From NCBI GenBank assembly GCA_022763285.1, contig JALEHB010000221.1, positions 1-33,259 on the forward strand: a stretch of 33,259 bases of DNA. Direction: 5' to 3'. The notes beneath the pieces were generated by a model. It did not search any database and was not told the origin of the DNA. It was given only the letters and a program-made list of their open reading frames with translations. Position 1 is the stretch's first letter, and every line of letters starts with the position of its first letter. The position numbers and the translations under genes are program-made. Shown here one piece after another: positions 2,168 to 17,755 of this stretch. Source of the DNA: Pseudomonadales bacterium. GTDB lineage: Bacteria; Pseudomonadota; Gammaproteobacteria; Pseudomonadales; Pseudohongiellaceae.

Positions 2168-2195
2168 TTAAAATTCATGATTCTGTGGGTAATAT
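2168..2195 (+). promoter_or_regulatory. Possible sigma70-type promoter upstream of the Ser-rich lipoprotein gene
   Basis: TTAAAA (2168-2173), 16-bp spacer, TAATAT (2190-2195), about 40 bp before ATG 2236, inside the largest noncoding gap of this cluster. Confidence 0.3.
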
Positions 2196-2235
2196 CCCAT
2201 GCAGGGATCGCCAGACAGACTCCGGTGAGGCCTTT

Positions 2236-3459
2236 ATGAGAACCGCTTCAGACAAGATCCAATACGCTGTCCAGACCGGCCTGGGTAAAAAGGCTGGCCG
2301 TCTGCTTGTGCTCAGCGCCCTGAGCACGGTGCTTTGGGCCTGCGAGTCCACCAGCCAGAGCTCCTCCAGCAGCAGTATGCCGTCCATGCCTTCGGCCAGT
2401 TCCTCATCCAGCAGTTCCAGCAGTTCGCCGGCCATGCCGTCTTCGAGTTCTTCCTCCAGCAGTAGCTCCAGCAGCCTGCCATCGCCCAGCTCAAGCTCCT
2501 CCAGTTCCTCGTCGAGCCTGCCCTCGGCCAGTTCCAGCAGTTCTGCCGGTTCTCCCCAGCCCAGTATCAGTAGCAGTTCCTCGTCCGGGAGCCAGAGCAG
2601 CAGTCCCTCGTCGCGGAATGGCTCATTTCCCAGTGATAGTGGGTCCAGCCAGGGTCAAAGCTCCACTTCGGCCGGCTCCAGCCAGTCCAATTCGGGAAAT
2701 TCTCCCACCCAGTCTGCAGGTTCCCAATCTCGTCTGCCTACAGACGGAAATAGCGGTTCAAGTGGGAGAGATACCTCAACAGGAGACCTAGGTACCGGCC
2801 AAAGTGGGGATTCAGGTGAATTAAATGGCATTTCCAGGTCATCTGGTGGGGATTATAGCCTCGACACCCTGCCAGGCGGTGGCCTGAATCGGGGCGACAG
2901 CGGTAATAGAGGAGACAGCAGCAATAATAGTGCTGGCAATAACAACAGCAGCACCACCGGCACCGGTGGCAGCACTGCCAGCAGCCCCGCTCAGAACGGC
3001 AGCTCGCAGCAGCCGGGTGGCACTGGCGCCATGACCGCAGCCGAGCGCACAGCCGCTCTGGATGAAGCCCTGCAGCGGGGTTATGAAACCTTTGATGGCT
3101 TCATCCTGGGAGAAAGATCCCGGGCCCAGCAGGAAAGCAACCAGGCCGGTAGCATGGAGATTCCTGGCGAAGATTCCGGCAGTCGGGGTGGCATTGGCGG
3201 CAATGCCGGCCAGCCCCAGATTCTGAATGAGGGCGGCGCCACTGTCCCTGGCGGGGTGATTGCCGCCAGCCAGCCCGTGGTTTCTTCTTCGGCTCCGGCT
3301 GAAACCTTTCCGCCACCGGAGGATATTCCCAGTGGCCGGGATGACGATGTGGTGGCCCGCCAGATTCGGGAAGCGGCCATGACCGAGCCGGACCCCGAAT
3401 TACGGGAAGCCCTGTGGGAAGAGTATCGAAACTATACTGGCCTCAGTGCAGACCAGTAG
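2236..3459 (+). CDS. Ser-rich low-complexity lipoprotein with an ordered C-terminal region
   Basis: ORF track starts at 2185; ATG 2236 gives a lipoprotein signal (LLVLSALSTVLWAC, Cys codon 2341-2343), then poly-Ser tracts, then a non-repetitive C-terminus 'DDDVVARQIREAAMTEPDPELREALWEEYRNYTGL'. Confidence 0.8.
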   Translation: MRTASDKIQYAVQTGLGKKAGRLLVLSALSTVLWACESTSQSSSSSSMPSMPSASSSSSSSSSSPAMPSSSSSSSSSSSSLPSPSSSSSSSSSSLPSASSSSSAGSPQPSISSSSSSGSQSSSPSSRNGSFPSDSGSSQGQSSTSAGSSQSNSGNSPTQSAGSQSRLPTDGNSGSSGRDTSTGDLGTGQSGDSGELNGISRSSGGDYSLDTLPGGGLNRGDSGNRGDSSNNSAGNNNSSTTGTGGSTASSPAQNGSSQQPGGTGAMTAAERTAALDEALQRGYETFDGFILGERSRAQQESNQAGSMEIPGEDSGSRGGIGGNAGQPQILNEGGATVPGGVIAASQPVVSSSAPAETFPPPEDIPSGRDDDVVARQIREAAMTEPDPELREALWEEYRNYTGLSADQ

Positions 3460-3509: not shown

Positions 3510-4709
3510 GTGAAGCATATGTTGAGAGCAAGCAGACAGGTTTTCAGTCTCATGCTGTTGGCCATTCTGGCCACGGCCTGTTCGACGCATACCGTCAAGA
3601 CCACAACCTATACTCCGGTGATTCAAAGTAGCGAAAACATTCCGGAAGAGTTGCTGCTCGATGTGGGAGTCTCCATTTTCGATCCGGGCCTGGATGAGGT
3701 GGAAGATGCCGACGAGGAAGTGACCAATGGTCAGATTCGCGTGGCTGAATCCCGCTACGCCCCCTACCTGCTGGCCAGCACCCTGCAGCGATCAGGCAAC
3801 TGGGGCATCGTGCGGGTGATGCCCAATGATTCCAGCCCTATGGATGTACAGGTAGATGCCACCATTCTGCGTTCCAATGGCGAGGCCATGGTAGTGCGGG
3901 TGGATGTCAGCGACTCCACCGGTCGGCAGTGGTACAGCAAGGAATACGAAGAAGTCATCAGCCAGTTCAGTTATGACCCGGCACAGCGGCAGCAGAATGA
4001 TCCTTTTCAGGTGTTGTACAACAATATCGCCAATGATCTGCTCGCCTGGCGCCAGCGCAATCTGGACAGCCAGCGCATCCTGGCCATTCGCACGGTTTCG
4101 GAAATGCTGTTTGCCCAGCGTTTTTCCGAGCAGGCCTTTGACGATTACCTGACCAGGGATAGAGATGGTCATTACCAGATTGCCTCGTTGCCGGCAGAGA
4201 ATGATCCGTTGTTGCAGCGCATTCGCCAGATCCGTGAACGTGACTTCATGTTTATCGATACGGTGCAGGACTACTACGCCACCTTTACCCGGCAGATGCG
4301 TCTGCCCTATGACTCCTGGCGCGAGCAGAGCTATCACGAAACCATTGCCCTGCGGGAATTGCGCGATTCTGCCCGACGCCGGTTCATTGCCGGTACAGCG
4401 GCGGTGATTGGCGGACTGGCAGCCGCCACCAGTGGTGGAAACTACGCCACCCAGGCCGGTGGTGCCGTGGGTGTTGGTGCCGGTGCCTATCTGATCAAGA
4501 GTGGCTTCGACAAACAGGCCGAAGCACGCATGCATATGGAGTCCCTCGAAGAGCTGGGCCAGTCACTGGAAAACGAGGTGGCCCCGCGCGTTATCAATCT
4601 GGAAGATCGCACAATCACGCTCACCGGTACTGTCGAAGAGCAGTATTCACAGTGGCGTGAAATCCTGGCAGATATCTATGCTGCAGAGATGGGCGAGTCC
4701 TGGCAGTAA
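3510..4709 (+). CDS. Conserved-looking lipoprotein with a Gly/Ala-rich hydrophobic segment
   Basis: GTG start preceded by AAGGAG; lipobox 'LLAILATAC'; internal 'AGTAAVIGGLAAATSGG...GGAVGVGAGAYLI'. Confidence 0.75.
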   Translation: MKHMLRASRQVFSLMLLAILATACSTHTVKTTTYTPVIQSSENIPEELLLDVGVSIFDPGLDEVEDADEEVTNGQIRVAESRYAPYLLASTLQRSGNWGIVRVMPNDSSPMDVQVDATILRSNGEAMVVRVDVSDSTGRQWYSKEYEEVISQFSYDPAQRQQNDPFQVLYNNIANDLLAWRQRNLDSQRILAIRTVSEMLFAQRFSEQAFDDYLTRDRDGHYQIASLPAENDPLLQRIRQIRERDFMFIDTVQDYYATFTRQMRLPYDSWREQSYHETIALRELRDSARRRFIAGTAAVIGGLAAATSGGNYATQAGGAVGVGAGAYLIKSGFDKQAEARMHMESLEELGQSLENEVAPRVINLEDRTITLTGTVEEQYSQWREILADIYAAEMGESWQ

Positions 4710-4727: not shown

Positions 4728-6254
4728 ATGTCAGAACGAGAAGTTGAAAATGCCGCAGAGGCAGCAGGCAATGCTGACGATCTGCCGCTGAATCCCCCGC
4801 CCGCCAGCCCCAGAAATCAGCCCCCGGTCTGGTTGTGGATCGGTGTGGGCGTGTTGGCGGTGCTGGCCCTGTTTGTGGTGTTTGTCCTGCCGGGCATTGT
4901 CAGTGAGTACGAATTGCCCCTGGAAAGAAGAATAGAAACACCCCTTGCTACACCGGCCACCTCTGGTCAGCCCGAAGCACCGGCGGTGTCCCCTTTCGAG
5001 GAAGCGCAGCGTGCCAACCAGCGCAAACAAGCCCAGGATGTGCTGGCTGAATTGTTGGAAAACCAGAATGAACTGGATGGCCTGGAAGTCACCGCCTGGG
5101 CCGATTCGCAGTATCAGGCAGCCCTGGAGCAGGCCAGCAGTGGTGACGAGGCCTACCGGGCCCAGGAATTCCTGCAGGCCACCACGGCATACAGTGAGGC
5201 CAGGGATGAGCTACAGGCCTTGCTGGAGTCAGTACCCCAGGTACAACAGCGACTGCTCGAGGAAGGTAATGAGGCCCTGGCAGCAGGGGACAGCACAGTG
5301 GCTGAGGATCGTTTCTCCCTGGCCCGGCTGCTGGACCCGCAAAGTGAAGCTGCCGGTATTGGATTGCAACGGGCGCGCAGCCTTGATGAAGTCCTGGCTT
5401 TGATTGAACAGGCCGAAGACCTGGCCGAGATTGGTGAGCTGCGTGAAGCGCGCCAGATCTACAGCCAGATTCAGGCCCTGGACAGCTATAACGAAACTGC
5501 CATAGCGCGCATCCCGGAGCTGGATGCCGCCATCGCCCAGGCCGAGTTTTCACGCATTATGTCCGAGGGCTACGCCCGGCTGGAACAGGGCCAGCCTGAG
5601 CAGGCAATTACCGCCTTTGAACAGGCAGCAGCGCTGGGAGTCAATGAAGAACAGGCCAGGGCAGCCATCCTGCAGACCGAGACCGAAGTGGCCAATGCCC
5701 GTATCAATGCGGCAAGACAACGCATCGAGACAGCCGAAGCGGATGAGCAGTGGCAAACAGCAGTGGATGAATATGATGAAGTGCTGGCTATTGATCCGAA
5801 CCTGACCTTTGCCTTCAGTGGTCGCGAGTATGCAGAGAAACGGGCGCTTCTGGATCAGTTACTGGTCACTGCCATCAACAATCCGGAACGCTTCGCTGAC
5901 GAAGGTGTTTTTCAGGAAACAGTGGATGTGTATTACACCGGCCGCGATATTGAAAACCCCGGACCAAGGCTTCAAGGGCAGCTCGATGAATTGCAGGTCC
6001 TGCTGGAAAATTCCCAGGTGCCCGTCGAGGTCACCCTGGTTTCTGACAATCTCACTGAGGTGACCCTGCTGCGTGAAGCCGAACTCGGGCTGTTTGAACA
6101 AACCAGCGTGTCGCTCAAGCCTGGCCGCTATGTGGCCATCGGCCGCCGTGCCGGTTATCGCGAAGTGCGTGAGGAATTTGTGGTGGGTTTCGGTCAGACC
6201 CCGGAACGGGTAGTGGTGCAATGTGAAGAACGCGTTGTCGCGACGAGCAGGTAA
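4728..6254 (+). CDS. Single-TM protein with periplasmic TPR-like repeats and a PEGA-like C-terminus
   Basis: TM 'VWLWIGVGVLAVLALFVVFVLPGIV' after a short N-terminus; repeated TPR-like helices (e.g. GYARLEQGQPEQAITAFEQAAAL); C-term 'SVSLKPGRYVAIGRRAGYREVREEFVV' is PEGA-like. Confidence 0.75.
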   Translation: MSEREVENAAEAAGNADDLPLNPPPASPRNQPPVWLWIGVGVLAVLALFVVFVLPGIVSEYELPLERRIETPLATPATSGQPEAPAVSPFEEAQRANQRKQAQDVLAELLENQNELDGLEVTAWADSQYQAALEQASSGDEAYRAQEFLQATTAYSEARDELQALLESVPQVQQRLLEEGNEALAAGDSTVAEDRFSLARLLDPQSEAAGIGLQRARSLDEVLALIEQAEDLAEIGELREARQIYSQIQALDSYNETAIARIPELDAAIAQAEFSRIMSEGYARLEQGQPEQAITAFEQAAALGVNEEQARAAILQTETEVANARINAARQRIETAEADEQWQTAVDEYDEVLAIDPNLTFAFSGREYAEKRALLDQLLVTAINNPERFADEGVFQETVDVYYTGRDIENPGPRLQGQLDELQVLLENSQVPVEVTLVSDNLTEVTLLREAELGLFEQTSVSLKPGRYVAIGRRAGYREVREEFVVGFGQTPERVVVQCEERVVATSR

Positions 6255-6261
6255 GCAGAAA

Positions 6262-8340
6262 ATGGCCGAACGCGAAGACGACAACAAAATCGATCATGGG
6301 GCAACTGACCCCATTGTCCCAATTGATTTTACGCCGCAGGAAGAAACCACGCGGCACTTCAGTTATCAATTCCGCTGGCTACACCTGATACTGGCGACCG
6401 CCTCCATCTTTGTTGCAGTCGCTGTCTGGTTCGTGCTGACAGCGCGCTCTGTGGCCATTCAGGTTGAGCCGATCACCGCCGGGATCGAAATCGAGGGCGG
6501 ACTGCATTTCCAGCTTGGCCAGCGTTACCTGATTCGTACCGGCTCCTATGACCTGCGCCTGAGCAACCCGGGCTATCACGATTCCAATACCCAGCTTCTG
6601 GTGGATTCCCGGCAGAACCAGATTCACAATTTTGAAATGCGCAAACTGCCGGGCCTGGTAAGCATCGACAGTGAAGGGCTGACCGGAGCGCGTGCACAGA
6701 TCGATGGTGTCGATGTAGGCGTCACCCCCTTGAGGGACATCCCGGTAGAACCGGGCCAGCATAATCTGACCCTGACCATGGATCGCTATCTGAATCATAG
6801 TCAGACCATCGACATTGAAGGGCGGGAGGTGCAGCAGAGTTTCAGTGCCGAATTGCAACCGGCCTGGGCGGTGGTGAATTTCAGTACCAGCCCGGCCGGG
6901 GCGGAAGTACTGGTGGATGGTGAGTTGATGGGTAGCACACCGCTGGCTGCCGAGATCCTGCAGGGCAGCCACGAAGTCACCCTGAAACTGGCAGGCCACA
7001 AGGCCTGGCAGGATGAGCTGGATGTGATTGCTGGCGAAGATTTTTCCCTGCCTGCGGTGGCGTTGGAGCCGGCGGATGGCCTGGTGTTTCTGCAAAGCAA
7101 CCCCAGCGGCGCCAGTGTCACCGTCAGTGGTGAATTCAAGGGTTTGACTCCCCTTGAAGTTGCCCTGGCACCCGGCCAGAGCCATGAACTGACGTTTTTC
7201 AAGAGCGGCTATGAGTCCATCAAGCGCAGCATTCGCACCGAAGCGGACCAGGAAACGGAATTGCGGGTAGCACTCGAGCCGGTGACGGCGGCGGTGCAGA
7301 TTGCCGTAGAACCCAATGATGCCGAACTCTACATCAATGGTGAACTACGGGGGCCGGCCAATCAGACCATCGAATTGATGGCGGTAAGTCAGCAACTGGA
7401 AATACGCCGCGACGGCTATGTGCCCTATGTGACCGAGTTTACTGCTCGCCCGGGTCTGGACCAGCGTATTGAGGTGAATCTGAAATCCCTGGAGCAGGCC
7501 CGACTGGAGCAGATCGAACCGGTGATAAGCACGGCCGCCGGCCAGCAACTCAAACTGTTTTATCCCGGCGCCTTCACCATGGGTGCATCCCGCCGTGAGC
7601 CGGGACGCCGCGCCAACGAAACTCTGCGCGATATTCAGCTTGAAAAGCCTTTCTATCTGGCCGAGCGGGAAGTCACCAATGCCGAGTTCCGCCTGTTCGA
7701 ACCCGAACATAATTCCGGCACCGTGGCAGGGCTGACTCTGAACAACGAAGCCCAGCCGGTGGTACGGGTGAGCTGGACCCAGGCGGCCCTGTATTGCAAC
7801 TGGCTCAGTGAGCAGGAATCACTGCCCCTGTTCTATCAGGTCAGCGATGGCCAGATTACCGGCATCAACCCTGAAGCCACCGGCTATCGATTGCCCACCG
7901 AGGCTGAATGGGCCTGGGTGGCGCGCACCGACGGCAGTGGCAATGTACTCAAATACAGTTGGGGTGATGCGCTGCCTCCGCCGGAAAACGCCGGCAACTT
8001 CGGAGACGTCACCGCTCGCAATTATCTGGGTGAGGTGATGTTCGACTACGACGATGGTGTGTTCGCCACCGCAGCGGTCGCCTCCTACGCACCCAATTAC
8101 CATGGCATCTATGACCTGGCTGGTAATGTGGCGGAGTGGGTCCATGATTTCTACGGATCGGTGGGCAGCTTCGGCGGCGTGGAAGTGGATCCTCTGGGGC
8201 CCGCCAATGGAGAATTTCACACCATTCGTGGCAGTAGCTGGGCCCATGGTGCAATCACCGAGATGCGCCTGTCGTTCCGCGATTTCGGCGCCGAGCCACG
8301 AGACGACCTGGGCTTTCGAATCGCCCGCTATCTGGAATAA
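6262..8340 (+). CDS. Single-TM PEGA-repeat protein with a C-terminal SUMF1/FGE-fold domain
   Basis: TM 'LHLILATASIFVAVAVWFVLTA'; about four PEGA repeats (e.g. 'STSPAGAEVLVDGELMGSTPLAAEILQGSHEVTLKLAGH'); SUMF1 hallmarks 'YRLPTEAEWAWVAR', 'IYDLAGNVAEWVHD', 'IRGSSW', 'LGFRIAR'. ORF track start 6223; ATG 6262 also fits. Confidence 0.9.
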   Translation: MAEREDDNKIDHGATDPIVPIDFTPQEETTRHFSYQFRWLHLILATASIFVAVAVWFVLTARSVAIQVEPITAGIEIEGGLHFQLGQRYLIRTGSYDLRLSNPGYHDSNTQLLVDSRQNQIHNFEMRKLPGLVSIDSEGLTGARAQIDGVDVGVTPLRDIPVEPGQHNLTLTMDRYLNHSQTIDIEGREVQQSFSAELQPAWAVVNFSTSPAGAEVLVDGELMGSTPLAAEILQGSHEVTLKLAGHKAWQDELDVIAGEDFSLPAVALEPADGLVFLQSNPSGASVTVSGEFKGLTPLEVALAPGQSHELTFFKSGYESIKRSIRTEADQETELRVALEPVTAAVQIAVEPNDAELYINGELRGPANQTIELMAVSQQLEIRRDGYVPYVTEFTARPGLDQRIEVNLKSLEQARLEQIEPVISTAAGQQLKLFYPGAFTMGASRREPGRRANETLRDIQLEKPFYLAEREVTNAEFRLFEPEHNSGTVAGLTLNNEAQPVVRVSWTQAALYCNWLSEQESLPLFYQVSDGQITGINPEATGYRLPTEAEWAWVARTDGSGNVLKYSWGDALPPPENAGNFGDVTARNYLGEVMFDYDDGVFATAAVASYAPNYHGIYDLAGNVAEWVHDFYGSVGSFGGVEVDPLGPANGEFHTIRGSSWAHGAITEMRLSFRDFGAEPRDDLGFRIARYLE

Positions 8341-8343
8341 GCC

Positions 8344-8577
8344 ATGCGTTGTGCCATCCTGATTCTGATGAGTTTGCTTGCTCTGCCCCTGGCAGCGCAG
8401 GAAGTCAGCGCCGAGCAGAATGAAACCGATCAGGCGCAAACCGATGCGGCAGAGTCAGAACTGATTCTCGACGACTCAGAAGCTGAAGATGAAGACGAGG
8501 AAGAGTCGCCCGAACGTTTTATTCCCACCGAGGAAATCTCCCAGGATCTCGGGGTGGCATTCCCGGTTGATATCTAG
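8344..8577 (+). CDS. Small exported acidic protein (77 aa)
   Basis: Signal peptide 'MRCAILILMSLLALPLAAQ' then Asp/Glu-rich 'ESELILDDSEAEDEDEEESPERF'; starts 4 bp after the upstream stop. Confidence 0.65.
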   Translation: MRCAILILMSLLALPLAAQEVSAEQNETDQAQTDAAESELILDDSEAEDEDEEESPERFIPTEEISQDLGVAFPVDI

Positions 8578-8580
8578 ATC

Positions 8581-8642: not shown

Positions 8643-9458
8643 ATGAGGCAGGGTTCTTTATACGAAACATTGTTCCAGATCGGTACGCTGATATTTGCCA
8701 TTATCATCGTCCATGCCAGCTATGTGACCGTGATCCGGCCCAATGCCGAACTGATCCAGGAACAGCAGAATGTCCTGCAGCAGACCGATGAGAACTTTGT
8801 GCCGGAACGATCGGTCTTTATTATTCTGCGAGACTTCGAGCAGGAGACCTGCATTATTCTGATGCTCTGGGCCATGTCCATTATCGGTATGAAAGCGGGC
8901 CACACCCTGCGCCAGCGATCGCTGCTGGACCGCACCCTGATACAGGTTTCCGATGGCATGAGTATCTTGCCGGAAGATGCGCGCAATTACGCCAGGCCGG
9001 TTCAGGCCCTGCCAGAAAAAGAAAAGGAATACCTGCTGCCCCGAGCTCTGCTCGCTGGCCTGCATCGTTTTCAAAGCACCCGTAATATCCAGGACGTATC
9101 CAATACGGTCAAGGATGTCTGTGAGACTGAAGCCGACCGCATGGAAACGGAACTCACCATCGTCCGCTATATCGCCTGGGCGATTCCATCCATTGGCTTT
9201 TTGGGTACGGTGCGGGGCATCGGTACCGCCCTGGGGCAGGCCTATCAGGCTGTGAGTGGCGATATTGTCGGCGTCACAGTCAGCCTGGGGGTCGCCTTCA
9301 ATTCAACCTTTGTGGCCCTGGTGGTGAGCATATTGCTGATGTTCCTGTTGCACCAGTTACAGCTGCTGCAGGATCGTCTGGTACTGGACAGCCAGAACTA
9401 TTGCGATGAGAAGCTCATTCGTCATCTGCAGGTGCCGGAGCGGGATAGTGAAGCATGA
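8643..9458 (+). CDS. MotA/TolQ/ExbB-type proton channel family protein
   Basis: 'YIAWAIPSIGFLGTVRGIGTALGQAYQ...GVTVSLGVAFNSTFVALVVSILLMFLLHQLQ' matches the MotA/TolQ/ExbB core (P..GFLGTV.GI ... T..al..si); additional N-terminal TMs. Confidence 0.9.
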   Translation: MRQGSLYETLFQIGTLIFAIIIVHASYVTVIRPNAELIQEQQNVLQQTDENFVPERSVFIILRDFEQETCIILMLWAMSIIGMKAGHTLRQRSLLDRTLIQVSDGMSILPEDARNYARPVQALPEKEKEYLLPRALLAGLHRFQSTRNIQDVSNTVKDVCETEADRMETELTIVRYIAWAIPSIGFLGTVRGIGTALGQAYQAVSGDIVGVTVSLGVAFNSTFVALVVSILLMFLLHQLQLLQDRLVLDSQNYCDEKLIRHLQVPERDSEA

Positions 9459-10798
9459 GCACCCGGGTCATTGAGCTCAATGACAGCGCCATCAAGCTTG
9501 GAGATGAAAGCGGTGTGCTCATCAGCAGTCCAGGCTTTGCCCTGGCCGATGACAAAATCATTCATCTGGGTGAGGAGGCGGAGCGGCAGGCGCGACTCAA
9601 ACCCACCAGCAGTTTTAACAAATACTGGCATGAACTGAGCCTCGAGCCCTATTCCGGCGCCGGCAGTTTTCGCCATTACGCGGATATCGCCCACGCCCAG
9701 CTCATGCACCTGGCTGAACACAGTGGCAGCGAGGGTGAAGTGATCTTTGCCGTGCCGGGCAGTTTCTCCCAACAGCAACTGGCCATCCTGCTGGGTATTG
9801 CACAACAGACCCCCCTGCGACCGGTGGGGGTGGTGGACTCAGCCCTGGCCGCCGCCATTGTCAGTGCCAGCGCCGAAAGAATTATCTATGTGGATATGCA
9901 GCTGCATCAGGTGGTGCTGACACGCCTGCTGCTGCGTGATGAGCAGCTGGAAAGTGAAGAGGTGATCCAGATTCCCGGCGTCGGCAGCCAGAATTTCATG
10001 GACTTGCTGATGCAACTGAGCACCGATCTGTTTATTCAGCAGTGCCGCTTCAATCCCCAGCACAATGCCGAGTCGGAACAGCAACTCTACAACGCCCTGC
10101 CAGCCTGGCTACGGCAGGAGGAGAACGAGCAGGGCTCGCTGGTGGTGGAGTTGAACAGTGGTGGCAATGTGCATACTGCCAAACTGCCCCGGGAGGAACT
10201 GGTGACTTCCCTGGCCGGGCATTACCGCAAGATTGATCAGCAGATTCAGGCCTTGCTGGGGGACCACGGTGCCCAGCTGTTGTTGAATCCAAACATGGCA
10301 GCCTTGCCCGGATTGAACCGGGCTTTCAATCACCATGCCGATCTGGTGGTGGTGGATGATCAGGCGGTGCTGCAGGGCAGCCTGCGCAGCAAGCAGCATA
10401 TTGCCCTGGGGGATGCCGGTATCCGCCGCATCAAACGTCTGCCGGTACATGATGAGCTGAAGCTGAAACTGGACAGCCAGCCGGACAAGGCCCAACTGCC
10501 AACCCATGTACTGCTTGACAATCAGGCCTGGGCCGCGGCCGATCTGACCCTGTTGTCCAGTGCCAGATCCGGCAATGGCCAGGCAGCCGGCAGCCTGGCG
10601 CTGAACCTGCCGGGCCTGCCGGAAGTACTGGCCAGACTGGAACGTCGCGGTTCGGCCCTGGTTCTCACTGAAGCCTGCAAGCAATTACGGCTGAACGCCG
10701 CGCCGGCAGAGACGCAGGTCAGCCTGAAGGCGGGCGACACACTCAGTTTCGAGGGACAGTCCCTGAGCCTGAACCTGATTCGGGTACATAATGTCTGA
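9455..10798 (+). CDS. Actin/Hsp70-fold-like protein with degenerate nucleotide-binding motifs
   Basis: N-term 'VIELNDSAIKL', 'EVIFAVPGSFSQQQLAILLGIAQQTPLRPVGVVDSALAAA', 'IIYVDMQLHQVVLTRL', 'LLLNPNMAALPGL' follow Hsp70/actin-like order; 4-bp ATGA overlap with the upstream gene. Confidence 0.65.
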   Translation: MSTRVIELNDSAIKLGDESGVLISSPGFALADDKIIHLGEEAERQARLKPTSSFNKYWHELSLEPYSGAGSFRHYADIAHAQLMHLAEHSGSEGEVIFAVPGSFSQQQLAILLGIAQQTPLRPVGVVDSALAAAIVSASAERIIYVDMQLHQVVLTRLLLRDEQLESEEVIQIPGVGSQNFMDLLMQLSTDLFIQQCRFNPQHNAESEQQLYNALPAWLRQEENEQGSLVVELNSGGNVHTAKLPREELVTSLAGHYRKIDQQIQALLGDHGAQLLLNPNMAALPGLNRAFNHHADLVVVDDQAVLQGSLRSKQHIALGDAGIRRIKRLPVHDELKLKLDSQPDKAQLPTHVLLDNQAWAAADLTLLSSARSGNGQAAGSLALNLPGLPEVLARLERRGSALVLTEACKQLRLNAAPAETQVSLKAGDTLSFEGQSLSLNLIRVHNV

Positions 10799-11891
10799 CA
10801 CCAAGAACAAGCGCCGCCGCGTCAATCCCCTCAGTCTGGCCTTTCTGGACGTGATGTTCTGTGGCTTTGGCGCGGTGATCCTGATTTTCCTGATTCTCGA
10901 TCACACCAGTACCATCGCCGAATCGGAATCCAATCCGGTACTGACGGCAGAAGTGAATTTGCTGCGCGAAGAAGTTCTGGAAGGGGAGGAGGGCCTGGTG
11001 CGCCTGCGCAACACCCTGTCGGATCTGGATCTTGAAGTGGTCACGGCCCAGGGGCTGGCTACCCGTATCCAGGAGCAGATCGATGACTTCCTGCAGGAGC
11101 TGGCGGCGCTGGAAAATACCAGTATCGCCAGTGAGGACAGTGTCGAGCAGTTGCGTTCGGATATTCAGCAACTGGAAGAGGAGCTGCGGCGCCTCAGGGC
11201 CGAAGCGGAACAGCAGGAAGGCAATAATGTGCGGCAGTTCATCGGCGACGGCAATCGCCAGTACCTGTCCGGCCTGTTTCTGGGTGGTCAGCGCATTCTG
11301 TTGCTGGTGGACAGCTCTGCCAGCATGCTGGACAGCACCCTGGTCAATATCATCCGCACCCGTAATATGAGCGATCAGCGCAAACGCAATGCACCAAAGT
11401 GGCAGCGTGTTGTCAAAACCGTGGACTGGATCACCACCCAGTTGCCTATTACCAGCCAGTACCAGCTCTGGCGTTTCGATGATGACTACAGCAGTGTGAT
11501 CGATGGCCCGGCTGACAGCTGGCTGGAGGTGGCAGACCGGGACCTGCTCAATGAAGCCATTGACCAAGTCCGACAGCTGGTCCCCGAAGATGGCACCAAT
11601 CTGGAGCAGGTGTTCGCGGCAGTGGCCGGCATGAGCCCCTTGCCTGACAATATATTCCTGATTACCGACGGTCTGCCCACCCTTAACGGGCGTAACAGTT
11701 CTGACAGCGTAATCACCCCAAGACGCCGGCTGGAGTTGTTCGAAGACGCAGTTGAAGTGCTTCCCGAGGGAATTCCGGTCAATATAATACTGATGCCCCT
11801 GGAAGGAGATCCGAGTGCCGCCGCCGCCTACTGGCAATTGGCACAATACTCGCAAGGTTCCTTTTTGACTCCTTCAAAGGACTGGCCCTAG
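10791..11891 (+). CDS. N-terminal-TM (FLDV motif), coiled-coil, vWA-domain protein, paralog 1
   Basis: 'LSLAFLDVMFCGFGAVILIFLIL' TM, long coiled coil, vWA MIDAS 'LLLVDSSASM' (DxSxS) and 'IFLITDGLPT'; overlaps the upstream gene by 8 bp. Confidence 0.85.
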   Translation: MSDTKNKRRRVNPLSLAFLDVMFCGFGAVILIFLILDHTSTIAESESNPVLTAEVNLLREEVLEGEEGLVRLRNTLSDLDLEVVTAQGLATRIQEQIDDFLQELAALENTSIASEDSVEQLRSDIQQLEEELRRLRAEAEQQEGNNVRQFIGDGNRQYLSGLFLGGQRILLLVDSSASMLDSTLVNIIRTRNMSDQRKRNAPKWQRVVKTVDWITTQLPITSQYQLWRFDDDYSSVIDGPADSWLEVADRDLLNEAIDQVRQLVPEDGTNLEQVFAAVAGMSPLPDNIFLITDGLPTLNGRNSSDSVITPRRRLELFEDAVEVLPEGIPVNIILMPLEGDPSAAAAYWQLAQYSQGSFLTPSKDWP

Positions 11892-11902
11892 AGAGCAGAG
11901 TG

Positions 11903-12907
11903 ATGCGACGCAAGAACCGGGAAACAGATTCCTTTACCGTGTCCTTTCTGGACGTGGCCTCCTGTGGGTTTGGCGCCATGATCATTCTGCTGATGATCAC
12001 CAAATCCCAGGCACCCATTACCCTGGAGTTTTCGGAAGTGACGCCCCAGGCCACCGTCAGTGAGTTGCAGGAGGAGTTGTTCGCCATACGCGGCGAAACC
12101 CGTATTCTCAACCGGGAGCTGAATGCCAAGCAGGAGCAGCTGTCGGCCCTGGATGAGCGTATTGCCCGCCTGCGCCGGGATCTGAATGATGTGCAGGGCC
12201 GATATGAGGCAACCGCCCAGCTTTCCGAGGAGAATTCTGAAGAGTATGGTCAGTTGGCCATCGCCCGTCAGTCCCTGACCGAGGAGATGCAGCGTCTGCT
12301 GGCCAACACTGTGGCGCCGGAGAACAATGCCATTGGCGGGGTACCGGTGGACAGCGAGTACATCATCTTTGTGATTGATACCTCCGGCAGTATGTTCAAC
12401 AACCCCAGCTGGGGGAAAATGCTGGGGGTCATCGACGATACCCTCAATGTCTATCCGGAAGTGAAGGGAATCCAGGTCATGAATGACATGGGCGACTATA
12501 TGTTCGACAGCTACCGGGGAGACTGGATCCCGGATACACCCGGCCGTCGCACTCAGATACTGAACACCCTGCGCAGCTGGAATCCCTACAGCAACAGTAG
12601 CCCTGTAGAAGGTGTGACACGGGCAATAAATACCTTTTATTCCCCGGACAGGAAAATTAGTATCTACGTACTGGGCGATGATTTTCAGCCCGGTGGCTCC
12701 ATCGAGGAAGTGCTGAATACCATTGACCGCATCAATGTGGAGGATGCGGACGGCAATCGCCTGGTACGTATCCATGGCATTGGCTTTCCGACCATTTTCG
12801 CGGGGCCCCAGCGCTTCCAGCAGAGTGTTTATCGCTACTCAACACTGATGCGCGAGATGACACAAAGAAATGGTGGTACATTTGTAGGGCTGAACGACTT
12901 TCGCTGA
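11903..12907 (+). CDS. N-terminal-TM (FLDV motif), coiled-coil, vWA-domain protein, paralog 2
   Basis: 'FTVSFLDVASCGFGAMIILLMIT' TM, coiled coil, vWA MIDAS 'IIFVIDTSGSM'; GTG 11900 / ATG 11903 start. Confidence 0.85.
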   Translation: MRRKNRETDSFTVSFLDVASCGFGAMIILLMITKSQAPITLEFSEVTPQATVSELQEELFAIRGETRILNRELNAKQEQLSALDERIARLRRDLNDVQGRYEATAQLSEENSEEYGQLAIARQSLTEEMQRLLANTVAPENNAIGGVPVDSEYIIFVIDTSGSMFNNPSWGKMLGVIDDTLNVYPEVKGIQVMNDMGDYMFDSYRGDWIPDTPGRRTQILNTLRSWNPYSNSSPVEGVTRAINTFYSPDRKISIYVLGDDFQPGGSIEEVLNTIDRINVEDADGNRLVRIHGIGFPTIFAGPQRFQQSVYRYSTLMREMTQRNGGTFVGLNDFR

Positions 12908-12947: not shown

Positions 12948-13595
12948 ATGACGATGAACAGATTGACAGGCAAGACTACTTACACAGGCTGGTTGCGGGC
13001 AACGTTGCTGCTGCCCCTGGCACTGCTTGCTGCCTGTGGTGTGAATAATGTTGTAATCGAAGGCAGCTTTCCGACCCCCAATATCGAACCTTTACCGATG
13101 ACGGTGGCGGTGTACTACGATGATGCCCTGCGCCAGTTCAGTTATATCGAATATTCCGAGACTGGCCAGGAGGAATACAATATCGAGAGCGGGGTCTCCC
13201 ATATTGCCCTGTTCGACGCCATCCTGCCGGCCATGTTCAGTGAGGTGCTTGTAGTCAATTCCCTGGAAGAGGCCCGCAGTGCCGAGGTGGATGCGGTTTT
13301 CGCACCCGCCATTGAAGAGTTTCAACTGGCACTTCCAGCCAAAACCAAGCTTGACGTTTATGAAGTGTGGATCAAATACAATATGCGTCTGGTGTCTGCC
13401 GATGGCGAATCTATCGCCGACTGGGTACTGACCTCCTATGGCAAGACACCGACTGCTACTTTCCGCTCGGAAGAAGCCGCCATCAACGACGCCGCCATCG
13501 TGGCGCTGCGTGATCTGGCATCCAGCTTCTCCCTGAGCTTTACCCAGGTACCGGAAGTACGAGACTGGTTAACTAGCCGTGGGATACGGACTTGA
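12948..13595 (+). CDS. Lipoprotein of unknown function
   Basis: Signal peptide with lipobox 'LLPLALLAACG'; one globular domain ('VYEVWIKYNMRLVSADGESIADWVLTSYGK'). Confidence 0.75.
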   Translation: MTMNRLTGKTTYTGWLRATLLLPLALLAACGVNNVVIEGSFPTPNIEPLPMTVAVYYDDALRQFSYIEYSETGQEEYNIESGVSHIALFDAILPAMFSEVLVVNSLEEARSAEVDAVFAPAIEEFQLALPAKTKLDVYEVWIKYNMRLVSADGESIADWVLTSYGKTPTATFRSEEAAINDAAIVALRDLASSFSLSFTQVPEVRDWLTSRGIRT

Positions 13596-13605
13596 TGTGA
13601 GGTGA

Positions 13606-14280
13606 GTGATGACTGCGCCTGTTGAGTTCAAAAATTTGAAACTGTTATTGGCCGCCGTTCTGGTCGGCCTGACCGCCTGTACCAGCACAACCGTGGATGA
13701 GTTTCGCCAGGGCGAGACGGGTATAGAAAGCCATGAGTCGGTGGTGATTCTGGGCCGCCGCCAGGCCAGTGACTATGAAACCCGTTCGGAGTTTGTGGAA
13801 TGTGTCGGAGACCGCATGGCAAGGGGTGATGATGCCCTCAGTGTGGTGCCGGAGCAGGAGTTTATTGACGCCATGTTCCCCTGGTTCGAACCGCGCACGG
13901 CGCCGCTGCGCACCCGTGATCTGGAACAGCTCATGGCCGAGGACGTGGTGGCCAACAAGATGAACGAATTCGGTATTCGCTACATTGTCTGGGTAGACGG
14001 ACAAACAGAGACTACAGACAGAGCGGGCTCTATCTCCTGTACCATTGGCCCCGGCGGCGGTGGCTGCTTTGGTTTTGGTACCTGGGAAGACGACGCCAAT
14101 TTTGATGCCCGGGTCTGGGATGTGGGTTCCCTGACCAATGTTGGCACTATCAATGCCGATGCTTCAGGGCAATCCTATCTGCCGGCCCTGGTCGTACCCA
14201 TACCATTGATTGCCAGAGTAGAGGCCAATGCCTGTAATCGCCTGGCAACCCAACTCAAACAGTTTGTAAACGGCAGTTAG
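13606..14280 (+). CDS. Lipoprotein of unknown function
   Basis: GTG 13606 or ATG 13609 start; lipobox 'LAAVLVGLTAC'; C-terminal 'GPGGGGCFGFGTWEDDANFDARVWDVGSL'. Confidence 0.7.
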   Translation: MMTAPVEFKNLKLLLAAVLVGLTACTSTTVDEFRQGETGIESHESVVILGRRQASDYETRSEFVECVGDRMARGDDALSVVPEQEFIDAMFPWFEPRTAPLRTRDLEQLMAEDVVANKMNEFGIRYIVWVDGQTETTDRAGSISCTIGPGGGGCFGFGTWEDDANFDARVWDVGSLTNVGTINADASGQSYLPALVVPIPLIARVEANACNRLATQLKQFVNGS

Positions 14281-14317: not shown

Positions 14318-15820
14318 ATGTTGTATTCAGGAATTCTCAGTCCGGTGATTAGTCCTACCCGCAAGCTGGCCAGGTTAGCCCTGGCCTCGGGTCTTGCCCT
14401 GTTCTTGCTACAGGGCTGTGCGGTAAATCCCGCCACCGGCGATGCCAATATGGTGTTCATGTCGGAGAGCCGGGAAAAGGAAATCGGCGCCGAAGAGCAT
14501 GAAAAAATCCTCGCCAGCATGCCCATGTATGAAGACGAGGAACTGCTGGCCTATGTCAACAAGGTGGGCCAGCGGGTGGCAGCAGTCAGTCACCGTCCCG
14601 ACCTGGAATATCAGTTTTTCATCATCGACAGCCCGGACATCAATGCCATGGCATTGCCTGGCGGCTATGTCTATGTGAATCGCGGCCTGCTTACCTTCAT
14701 GAATGAGGAAGCAGAACTGGCTGCCGTTCTGGCCCATGAGATTGGTCACATCACCGCCCGCCACGCCGTGCAGCAACATGCCCGAGGCGCGCTGGCCAAT
14801 GCGGCTTCCACCGTCGGTGGTTTTGTCACCGCCGTGGCAACCGGCAGTGGCTACGTCGGTTCCCAGATCAGCCAGGTGACCTCAATATGGGCTCAGACCG
14901 GTCTCAGCGGTTTCGGCCGTGAAGGCGAGTTGGAGGCGGACAGCCTGGGGGCAGAGTACCTGCTCCGGGCGGGCTATGATCCGGCCAATATGATCGACGT
15001 CATCACCGTGCTGAAAAACCAGGAAGACTTCAATCGTCGTGTGCAGGGCAATCGTGGCAGCTATCACGGGGTCTTTGCCACCCACCCGCGCAATGACACC
15101 CGATTGCAGCAGGCCATTGCTGCCGTGGGAGATCTGGATGAAAGTGAGCTGGCCGAGACCGACGATGCAGGGTTTCGCAAGCACATCGATGGTCTGATTC
15201 TGGGTGAGAGCAATGCTGCCCGGCAGATGGATACTCGCAATCGCTATTACCAGACCCTGCTGGGTTACACCCTGGTATTTCCCGATGACTGGGCTATTAA
15301 TGAGACTACCACCACGGCCACCGCCGGGAATCCGGAAGTGGGCAATCTCAGGATTGAGGTGCAACGTCTGCAGCAGAACATAGAGCCACGTGTCTTCATA
15401 AGAGACGTACTGGGCATCGAGGGCTTGCAGAAATCCGAACCCCTGCAGCAGTATCGCCTGATCGGCCATACCGGCATGACCAGCAGCGCCAATGGCAAAG
15501 CCGAGCGAGTGGCGGTGATCTACTTTGGACCCCGGGCCTATATTCTGCGTGGTGAAATTCTGGACAACAGCGCCGTCGACGAGATCGATGACCTGTTGCT
15601 GGCCTCGATCCGGACCTTTCGACCGATTCAGGCCGGAGAAGCGGGTAACAGCCGGGAGCCGCGTATCCGCTATGTTCAGGCCAGCGAACACTTCGACTTC
15701 GCGGTGGTCGCCCAGAGCAGCCCACTGGGCCCCAATGCCGAGCCCATGCTGCGTCTTCTCAATGGCTACTATCCCAGTGGGCAGCCCGAAGCGGGCGAAT
15801 GGATCAAGCTGGTCGAGTAG
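14318..15820 (+). CDS. M48 family metalloprotease, predicted lipoprotein
   Basis: 'VLAHEIGHITARHAVQQHARG' (HExxH), downstream 'EGELEADSLGAEYLLRAGYD'; lipobox 'LALFLLQGC'; long C-terminal extension. Confidence 0.9.
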   Translation: MLYSGILSPVISPTRKLARLALASGLALFLLQGCAVNPATGDANMVFMSESREKEIGAEEHEKILASMPMYEDEELLAYVNKVGQRVAAVSHRPDLEYQFFIIDSPDINAMALPGGYVYVNRGLLTFMNEEAELAAVLAHEIGHITARHAVQQHARGALANAASTVGGFVTAVATGSGYVGSQISQVTSIWAQTGLSGFGREGELEADSLGAEYLLRAGYDPANMIDVITVLKNQEDFNRRVQGNRGSYHGVFATHPRNDTRLQQAIAAVGDLDESELAETDDAGFRKHIDGLILGESNAARQMDTRNRYYQTLLGYTLVFPDDWAINETTTTATAGNPEVGNLRIEVQRLQQNIEPRVFIRDVLGIEGLQKSEPLQQYRLIGHTGMTSSANGKAERVAVIYFGPRAYILRGEILDNSAVDEIDDLLLASIRTFRPIQAGEAGNSREPRIRYVQASEHFDFAVVAQSSPLGPNAEPMLRLLNGYYPSGQPEAGEWIKLVE

Positions 15821-15961
15821 GACCTTACTCCGGGCGGACCCCCTGCTCAATTTCCCTGCCGCTGCCCCATTTTGTTTTTACAGGGCGCAGGGTTACACTT
15901 GCTTGCAGGAAATTGGCGGGCTGGCAGGGAACAGGCCGGGAAACACAGGAAAACGGCAGCA

Positions 15962-17755
15962 ATGACGGCAATGGAATCTCAGACACAGGGTCAGCATCGA
16001 CCCAATGAACCGCTGGATCTGCGGTTCTTTCTCGATGGTCTGATGGCAGCCGGTCGCATCGACCAGCAGGACTATGATCTGGCGGTCAAGGATCGTCATG
16101 CCGCCGATCACCGTGGCAAGCACGTCTTGCAGTATGTCGCCGATCTGGAGTTCACCGACAAGGCCGGCTCCGGCAAGACCCTGGATATCGAAGCCCTGAC
16201 CCGAGCCCTGAGTGAGCAATGCGGGCAGGACTACTATCGCATCGATCCGCTGAAAATCGATGTGGCCGCGGTGACCCAGGTCATGGATCACAAGTTCTCC
16301 CAGCGTCATCATATTCTGGCGGTGGAAGACAATGACAATGAAGTGGTTATTGCCAGTGCCGAGCCCTTTCTGAATTCCTGGGAATCGGTACTGGAACACA
16401 CATCCCAGAAAAATCTGCGCCGGGTTGTTTCAAACCCGCTGGACATTAAACGACTCACCACAGAATTTTACAGCGTTTCCAGGTCTATTCGCGGCGCCAC
16501 CGCCGGCACTGTACACAAGAAAGGCATCGGCAATCTGGAACAAATGCTGGAGTTGGGCAAGCTCAAGGACCCGGAGGCCAACGACCAGCACATCGTCAAT
16601 GTAGTGGACTGGCTATTGCAATACGCCTTCGAACAGAGAGCCAGCGATATTCATATCGAACCTCGGCGCGAACAGGGCAGTATCCGTTTTCGTATCGACG
16701 GGGTACTGCACACTGTCTATTCACTGCCCATGCAGGCCATGAGCGCAGTAACCAGTCGATTGAAAATTCTCGGCCGCATGAATGTGGCAGAGAAGCGCAA
16801 ACCCCAGGATGGCCGTATCAAGACCAAGAGCCCCAATGGCGACGAGGTGGAATTGCGATTGTCCACCTTGCCCACGGCGTTTGGTGAAAAACTGGTGATG
16901 CGGATCTTCGATCCGGAAGTACTGCTGAAGCCGTTTTCGGAACTGGGTCTGATCAACGAAGATCTGAAACGTTGGCAGGACATCACGGCCAACAATCATG
17001 GCATCGTTATCATTACCGGCCCCACCGGCAGCGGTAAAACCACCACCCTGTATTCCACCCTGAAGAGCCTGGCCACCGAAGAGGTGAATGTTTGCACCAT
17101 TGAAGACCCCATCGAAATGGTTGAAGACAGTTTTAACCAGATGCAGGTGCAGGAAAACATCGACCTGAATTTTGCCGATGGCGTCAAAGCCTTGTTGCGA
17201 CAGGATCCGGATATCATCATGATTGGCGAGGTGAGAGACCTGGCCACTGCCGAAATGGCGATCCAGGCGGCCCTCACCGGCCATCTGGTGTTTACCACTC
17301 TGCATACCAATGATGCGCCCTCGGCGGTCACCCGCCTGCTGGAATTGGGTGTGCCTCCCTATCTGATCAAGGCAACCGTGGTGGGCATTATGGCCCAGCG
17401 TCTGGTGCGGGTTTTATGCCCCCATTGCAAGGAGCCGGCAGAGGTGGACAAGGAAGCCTGGGAAACCCTGACCAGGCCCTGGAAAGTGAAATTGCCCAGC
17501 AAGGCCAACCATGCCCCCGGCTGTCTGGAATGCCGAGAAACCGGATTTCTAGGCCGCGAGGGTATTTATGAAGTCATGCCCTTTACCGAAACCCTGCAAT
17601 CCCATGCCGATGACAAATCGGCGCTTCCCGATTTGCGCCGCCAGGCCTACAAGGAAGGGATGCTGAGTCTGCGCCTCAGCGGCGCCCAGAAAGTGGCAGC
17701 CGGTCTGACCACAGTCAATGAAGTGTTGCGGGTGACACCGGACAACAAAAACTGA
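15962..17755 (+). CDS. GspE/PulE/PilB-family secretion-type ATPase
   Basis: Walker A 'GPTGSGKTTTLYSTL', 'DPDIIMIGEVRDLATAEMAIQAALTGHLVFTTLHTNDA', Zn motif 'CPHC...CLEC', 'GREGIYEV'. ORF track start 15872; ATG 15962 is more likely. Confidence 0.9.
   Translation: MTAMESQTQGQHRPNEPLDLRFFLDGLMAAGRIDQQDYDLAVKDRHAADHRGKHVLQYVADLEFTDKAGSGKTLDIEALTRALSEQCGQDYYRIDPLKIDVAAVTQVMDHKFSQRHHILAVEDNDNEVVIASAEPFLNSWESVLEHTSQKNLRRVVSNPLDIKRLTTEFYSVSRSIRGATAGTVHKKGIGNLEQMLELGKLKDPEANDQHIVNVVDWLLQYAFEQRASDIHIEPRREQGSIRFRIDGVLHTVYSLPMQAMSAVTSRLKILGRMNVAEKRKPQDGRIKTKSPNGDEVELRLSTLPTAFGEKLVMRIFDPEVLLKPFSELGLINEDLKRWQDITANNHGIVIITGPTGSGKTTTLYSTLKSLATEEVNVCTIEDPIEMVEDSFNQMQVQENIDLNFADGVKALLRQDPDIIMIGEVRDLATAEMAIQAALTGHLVFTTLHTNDAPSAVTRLLELGVPPYLIKATVVGIMAQRLVRVLCPHCKEPAEVDKEAWETLTRPWKVKLPSKANHAPGCLECRETGFLGREGIYEVMPFTETLQSHADDKSALPDLRRQAYKEGMLSLRLSGAQKVAAGLTTVNEVLRVTPDNKN

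Follow-up and report, generated by a model that had tools for sequence, protein, structure and literature searches.

What is the role of a domain that has the fold of a formylglycine-generating enzyme (FGE), is carried on a membrane-anchored array of PEGA domains and lacks the cysteines that such enzymes employ in catalysis? The question is raised by a gene in a stretch of 33,259 nucleotides from a Pseudomonadales bacterium (contig JALEHB010000221.1; this whole stretch is referred to as the window), where it lies in an operon with genes for a TolQ/ExbB-like protein and two vWA proteins (Table 1). Searches of the open literature gave no paper that describes the PEGA-SUMF1/vWA operon.

Table 1. 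Positions of the operon genes in the window and of features within the PEGA-SUMF1 protein
Feature	Positions	Strand	Basis
Lipoprotein, TolB N-domain-like fold, operon partner	3510..4709	+	AlphaFold2 pLDDT 78; Foldseek TolB E 3.5e-3; conserved neighbour
TM-TPR protein, operon partner	4728..6254	+	Weak TPR; conserved neighbour
PEGA-SUMF1 protein, 692 aa	6262..8340	+	Pfam PEGA and FGE-sulfatase; AlphaFold2 pLDDT 88
Cytoplasmic tail motif IVPIDFTP, residues 18-25, candidate Hsp70-like docking site	6313..6336	+	Locus co-occurrence, post hoc
Single TM helix, residues 39-60	6376..6441	+	AlphaFold2 helix, hydrophobic stretch
Five PEGA domains, residues about 62-407	6445..7482	+	Pfam stretches, AlphaFold2 model
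SUMF1/FGE-fold domain, residues about 421-692	7522..8337	+	Pfam PF03781; Foldseek FGE, PvdO, TvpA, PorK
Equivalent of FGE catalytic Cys loop, Cys-less, two residues shorter	8224..8283	+	Profile alignment to human FGE
Small secreted acidic protein, 77 aa, ends FPVDI-COOH, earlier overlooked	8344..8578	+	
MotA/TolQ/ExbB-like channel protein	8643..9458	+	Pfam 1.1e-14; T189, T222
Hsp70-like (actin superfamily) protein, degenerate phosphate loops	9455..10798	+	hhalign; alignment consensus
vWA1: ExbD-type TM, invariant Asp20, coiled coil, vWA with MIDAS	10791..11891	+	
vWA2: ExbD-type TM, conserved Asp18, coiled coil, vWA with MIDAS	11900..12907	+	
Two lipoproteins, frequent operon partners	12948..14280	+	Conserved neighbours
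M48 peptidase, frequent operon partner	14318..15820	+	Pfam 9.4e-36; adjoins in most loci of the order

The PEGA-SUMF1 protein and its Cys-less segment

The PEGA-SUMF1 gene is a real open reading frame with an ATG start. Its product matches the Pfam PEGA family in five stretches (E=6.5e-50) and, over residues 435-689, the FGE-sulfatase family (PF03781, E=5.5e-38), and an AlphaFold2 model built on 41 orthologs (mean pLDDT 88) contains five PEGA β-domains (residues about 62-127, 131-198, 202-268, 273-340 and 342-407). Pfam and model thus agree in making it a PEGA-domain protein, with five repeats rather than the four counted in the original prediction; the remainder of the architecture proposed there, i.e. 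a membrane-anchored PEGA stalk with an N-terminal TM helix and a periplasmic SUMF1 domain, is borne out by the Pfam matches and by the helix at residues 39-60 of the model. About 100 loci encode full-length orthologs, with identities of roughly 36-73%, so the observed architecture is far beyond chance.

The SUMF1 hallmarks first read from the sequence are confirmed by the fold. Foldseek comparisons with the SUMF1 domain give TvpA, PvdO and FGE at target-normalised TM-scores of 0.63-0.77, and PorK with weaker scores. TvpA of Treponema denticola is the first match, PvdO (5hha) has the highest target-normalised TM-score (0.77), and the values for FGE are about 0.7, which together with the PF03781 match place the domain within the FGE-sulfatase fold.

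In human FGE, C336 and C341 form the copper-binding catalytic Cys pair. In a profile alignment, C336 corresponds to H662 and C341 to I665, with a two-residue deletion between them. The segment concerned, IRGSSWAHGAITEMRLSFRD, is present exactly as originally quoted, without Cys, and the sole Cys is indeed the one in LYCNWLS (C512), which pairs in the profile alignment with the Cys of 'AYCTW' in human FGE, a non-catalytic residue. Neither the SUMF1 domain nor its orthologs have the FGE catalytic pair: the active segment has no Cys column in a 110-row ortholog alignment, 23 class- and phylum-level orthologs are likewise Cys-less there, and of 133 proteins, 128 are devoid of Cys over their last 75 residues; the other five comprise four relatives from outside the operon and a broken frame. 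Every intact operon ortholog examined lacks the catalytic cysteines, which makes it very improbable that the SUMF1 domain is an FGE; FGE activity was rejected on this family-wide loss, and the earlier assessment as 'probably non-catalytic' is, in the FGE sense, well supported.

The extra-operon PEGA-SUMF1 relatives (L060-L063) have two Cys near the C terminus, none of them at the FGE catalytic positions. The EgtB/OvoA sulfoxide synthases have an N-terminal DinB domain with an iron-binding His triad; an enzyme of this type was also rejected for PEGA-SUMF1, which has no DinB domain and only PEGA and FGE-sulfatase matches above the Pfam cut-off. The same genome encodes an OvoA-like DinB-FGE-methyltransferase protein (L003, 2-2194, minus strand) and, next to a multi-TM membrane protein, a further SUMF1 protein (L002, 1486-2493, minus strand).

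The stretch from the TM helix to the SUMF1 domain (residues 61-428) is 367 residues long with an SD of 2.1 (n=106 orthologs), and 366-369 residues long in a second class of the phylum; the divergent orthologs L177, L179, L180, L181, L183 and L184 have other stalk lengths. A stalk of nearly fixed length is a new observation here.

The operon and its constant or frequent partners

The gene order was compared in about 100 loci of Gammaproteobacteria, among them Pseudohongiella-like, Porticoccus, Litorirhabdus and Thiotrichaceae genomes. It runs: Ser-rich protein, lipoprotein, TM-TPR protein, PEGA-SUMF1, TolQ/ExbB-like protein, Hsp70-like protein, vWA1, vWA2, two lipoproteins and M48 peptidase. 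The core, comprising the first lipoprotein, TM-TPR protein, PEGA-SUMF1, ExbB-like protein, vWA1 and vWA2, is also found in other orders of the class and in another class of the phylum, and the order TPR, PEGA-SUMF1, ExbB-like, (Hsp70-like), vWA1, vWA2 is common to the Gammaproteobacteria, the second class and paralogous operons. The latter are second PEGA-SUMF1/ExbB/vWA operons in some genomes (L056-L059), with the small-protein tails LPKDI, LPQDI and YPEDI. Among 295 genomes of the order, vWA2 is present in 68, and the identical 68 have full-length PEGA-SUMF1; two further genomes have weak partial PEGA-SUMF1 matches only. A plasmid-borne system was rejected, since a search of the plasmid collection at E 1e-30 gave no match, as was anti-phage defence, with no PADLOC match for PEGA-SUMF1 or the ExbB-like protein and only a marginal coiled-coil match (LmuB) for vWA1.

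The TolQ/ExbB-like protein keeps the channel motif, and its invariant T189 and T222 align to TolQ Thr residues. Both vWA proteins, which are mutually homologous (E 5e-27), open with an ExbD-type helix, FLDxxxCGFGA, bearing a conserved Asp, which is invariant in vWA1 (D20) and present at 90% or more in vWA2 (D18). Their MIDAS motifs are constant (115/117 and 110/112, respectively). The ExbD/TolR genes of this genome are on other contigs only. The link to the vWA proteins suggested in the original prediction was right in spirit, the vWA pair being the ExbD-like half of the predicted motor.

The protein encoded between the channel protein and vWA1 resembles the nucleotide-binding domain of Hsp70 (hhalign against DnaK: probability 61%, E 8e-5); a PilM- or MreB-type actin protein was rejected, with hhalign probabilities below 1%. 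The alignment consensus has LDxQLHQ in place of the Gly-rich phosphate loop, and, judged from its sequence, the protein is probably not an ATPase. The Hsp70-like gene is missing from some operons, and its presence is tracked by a motif in the N-terminal tail of PEGA-SUMF1, which is a new observation here. Of the 93 loci that have the Hsp70-like gene, 78 contain the strict form of the motif, compared with none of the 15 that lack the gene (Fisher p 2e-10, a value that overstates independence because the motif was defined after the data had been seen and the loci share kinship). When the motif is relaxed, the counts become 93/93 and 0/15, respectively, and 2% of shuffled tails match. The 15 loci without the gene are spread over several separate lineages.

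A conserved small gene, absent from the original prediction, starts 3 bases past the PEGA-SUMF1 stop codon and occupies a gap upstream of the TolQ-like gene that is itself conserved in size (median 302 bases) and in which no convincing local promoter or terminator was found. The open reading frame in this gap ends in [FYLM]PxDI-stop in 117/121 loci, among them those of the paralogous operons and of the second class. About 30,800 frames of at least 40 codons in the same loci include 127 that end in PxDI, only two of which look unrelated to the small gene. No Pfam family reaches the cut-off with the small protein; the gene, with its PxDI-COOH tail, is new here.

The first lipoprotein is modelled with a TolB-like N-domain, after which come long helices and a Gly-rich stretch. 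Its likeness to the TolB N-domain (Foldseek probability 1.00 for the best TolB entry and above 0.9 for several) is suggestive, not proven. Neither of the two lipoproteins that start at 12948 and 13606 belongs to a known family in Pfam or the PDB; the second (13606-14280, plus strand) has five invariant Cys (C25, C66, C145, C154, C210), a pattern that suggests disulfides. A secreted Ser-rich low-complexity protein (2185-3459, plus strand) heads the operon in most loci. Downstream lie a PilB/MshE-type secretion ATPase (15872-17755, plus strand), then heptosyltransferases and lipid A genes, a linkage seen in close relatives only.

A probable docking post beside a predicted motor, and other explanations

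An enzyme-like domain without its active site, constantly present with genes of a predicted motor, is probably a motor scaffold or docking post and not an enzyme. The explanation that we favour, and hold to be probable if not strongly so, is that PEGA-SUMF1 is a structural, non-enzymatic part of a pmf-driven trans-envelope machine, i.e. a docking hub on a post of fixed height. We infer that it assembles physically with the motor, that it docks other proteins, that its fixed height is functional and that the PxDI tail has a binding partner. The motor would comprise a TolQ/ExbB-like pentamer and the two vWA proteins, with the ExbD-type TM helices of the latter carrying the proton-binding Asp. 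Beside it PEGA-SUMF1 would stand as a static post in the inner membrane, which it would cross once, leaving its N-terminal tail in the cytoplasm, where the Hsp70-like subunit, in those operons that encode it, may dock on the tail. The five PEGA domains would form a rod that holds the Cys-less FGE-fold domain at a set height in the periplasm, and this domain would act, as in PorK, as a docking hub for partner proteins, candidates being the TolB-N-like lipoprotein, the vWA heads and the PxDI-tailed small protein. Regarding the output of such a machine, the presence of a TolB-N-like lipoprotein and an M48 peptidase makes us guess first at envelope maintenance, as with Tol-Pal; protein export comes second.

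A more detailed proposal, which is offered tentatively, as a possibility rather than an expectation, is that the operon encodes a distinct proteobacterial machine spanning the envelope, in which a vWA-headed, proton-driven motor works against the PEGA stalk of fixed height, the Cys-less FGE fold or a vWA MIDAS captures the PxDI-COOH tail of the small secreted protein and the degenerate Hsp70-like protein binds the cytoplasmic tail of the stalk. The FGE fold would then serve structurally in a pmf motor beyond the type IX system of Bacteroidota.

The SUMF1 domain could itself be the specific receptor for the PxDI tail, via a peptide groove inherited from FGE, though we consider this rather unlikely. 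FGE folds bind Pro-containing peptides (CxPxR), and the small gene, with its well-kept tail, lies directly downstream of PEGA-SUMF1; PorK, moreover, docks a C-terminal segment of PorN (PMC12421860). Against it, the family-specific Arg-rich loop of the SUMF1 domain (residues 441-455) is lost in L180, L183 and L184 whereas PxDI is retained there, which weakens the case for this loop as the receptor. In other systems vWA MIDAS motifs bind acidic ligands, and since those of the two vWA proteins are equally constant, they are at least as good candidates for binding PxDI, a point that also counts against the SUMF1 domain.

That the domain is a non-canonical enzyme, which uses other residues for another periplasmic reaction, e.g. 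a PvdO-like oxidation, with the operon supplying energy or position, appears improbable. By target-normalised TM-score no structure matches better than PvdO, which carries the annotation of a dihydropyoverdine dehydrogenase (NF051459), so an FGE fold of unusual kind can be an enzyme, and residues at the core of the FGE fold show strong conservation here, including E470 (equivalent to E130 of human FGE, as counted in the alignment); such conservation is, however, also expected of a purely structural fold. In some orthologs, as well as in the second class, H662 is replaced by Ser, Lys or other residues, thus it is not a fixed metal ligand, and the operon is without biosynthetic genes, its context fitting a motor instead.

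Least probable, indeed very unlikely, is a periplasmic module that binds a ligand other than a protein (e.g. a glycan or peptidoglycan) and uses the SUMF1 fold as does TvpA, a C-type-lectin-fold variable protein, since, although TvpA is the first structural match and PEGA arrays are a plausible presenting stalk, the SUMF1 domain is well conserved across orthologs with no hypervariable region, no lectin or peptidoglycan-binding domain was found and the obligate linkage to motor genes is better accounted for by protein docking. Of the original idea of a stalk presenting a ligand-binding module, the periplasmic stalk stands; glycan or peptidoglycan binding is not supported, conservation and the pmf-motor context pointing to no free ligand.

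In many Gammaproteobacteria, genes that carry the name 'formylglycine-generating enzyme family' probably encode structural motor parts and are misannotated. The module also supplies a predicted class of motor with defined partners through which it can be tested, namely a stalk of fixed length, a PxDI tail and a cytoplasmic docking motif.

Comparison with known systems

The SUMF1 domain shares with FGE (human SUMF1; S. coelicolor 6muj) its fold, with target TM-scores of 0.63-0.73, and the motifs RLPTEAEW, GNVxEW and GFR. It differs in the replacement of the catalytic pair and the accompanying deletion, and in that no sulfatase is present among the window genes scanned with Pfam. The likeness to PvdO is in the fold; PvdO, however, is a stalkless protein of the pyoverdine pathway, whereas the present operon is a predicted motor operon without siderophore genes, and the NCBIfam PvdO model gives 46.7 bits, compared with an equivalog cut-off of 500.

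The operon resembles Tol-Pal in its TolQ-like channel, the ExbD/TolR-like TM Asp, the TPR protein and the TolB-N-like lipoprotein, but no TolA, TolB propeller or Pal is present among the window genes scanned with Pfam. Canonical TolB is encoded separately in 8/8 relatives searched.

A TolQ-like gene with paired vWA proteins that replace ExbD/TolR has been described as encoding putative 5:2 motors (Williams-Jones et al. 2025, PMC12204202), in a paper whose main text mentions neither SUMF1 nor PEGA. The operon studied here has the same features, i.e. a neighbouring TolQ-like gene, a heterologous vWA pair with the ExbD-type TM Asp and no local exbD or tolR. To these motors it adds PEGA-SUMF1, the TolB-N-like lipoprotein, the Hsp70-like protein and the PxDI small protein as constant or frequent partners.

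The closest parallel to the proposed role is PorK, an FGE-fold protein that has lost the catalytic Cys and serves as a non-enzymatic docking hub beside the pmf-driven PorLM motor of the T9SS; it is a lipoprotein of the outer membrane that forms a 33-fold ring together with PorN (PMC12421860). As in PorK/GldK, a Cys-less FGE fold is here linked to a pmf motor, albeit a predicted one, GldK is the best NCBIfam match of PEGA-SUMF1 (5e-29) and there is a strong PDB profile match to PorK (E 7e-27). Nevertheless, the GldK score of 101.7 bits is far below the equivalog cut-off of 350, PorK has its own insertions and no PEGA domains, and no PorN-like gene was identified here; PEGA-SUMF1 thus lies outside the PorK family. 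The present protein is tethered to the inner membrane via a TM helix and five PEGA units, and the predicted motor axle bears vWA heads. By analogy PEGA-SUMF1 may nonetheless work like PorK, and the parallel suggests that either the FGE fold was recruited repeatedly as a scaffold for proton-driven machines of the envelope, or its use there is an ancient shared trait.
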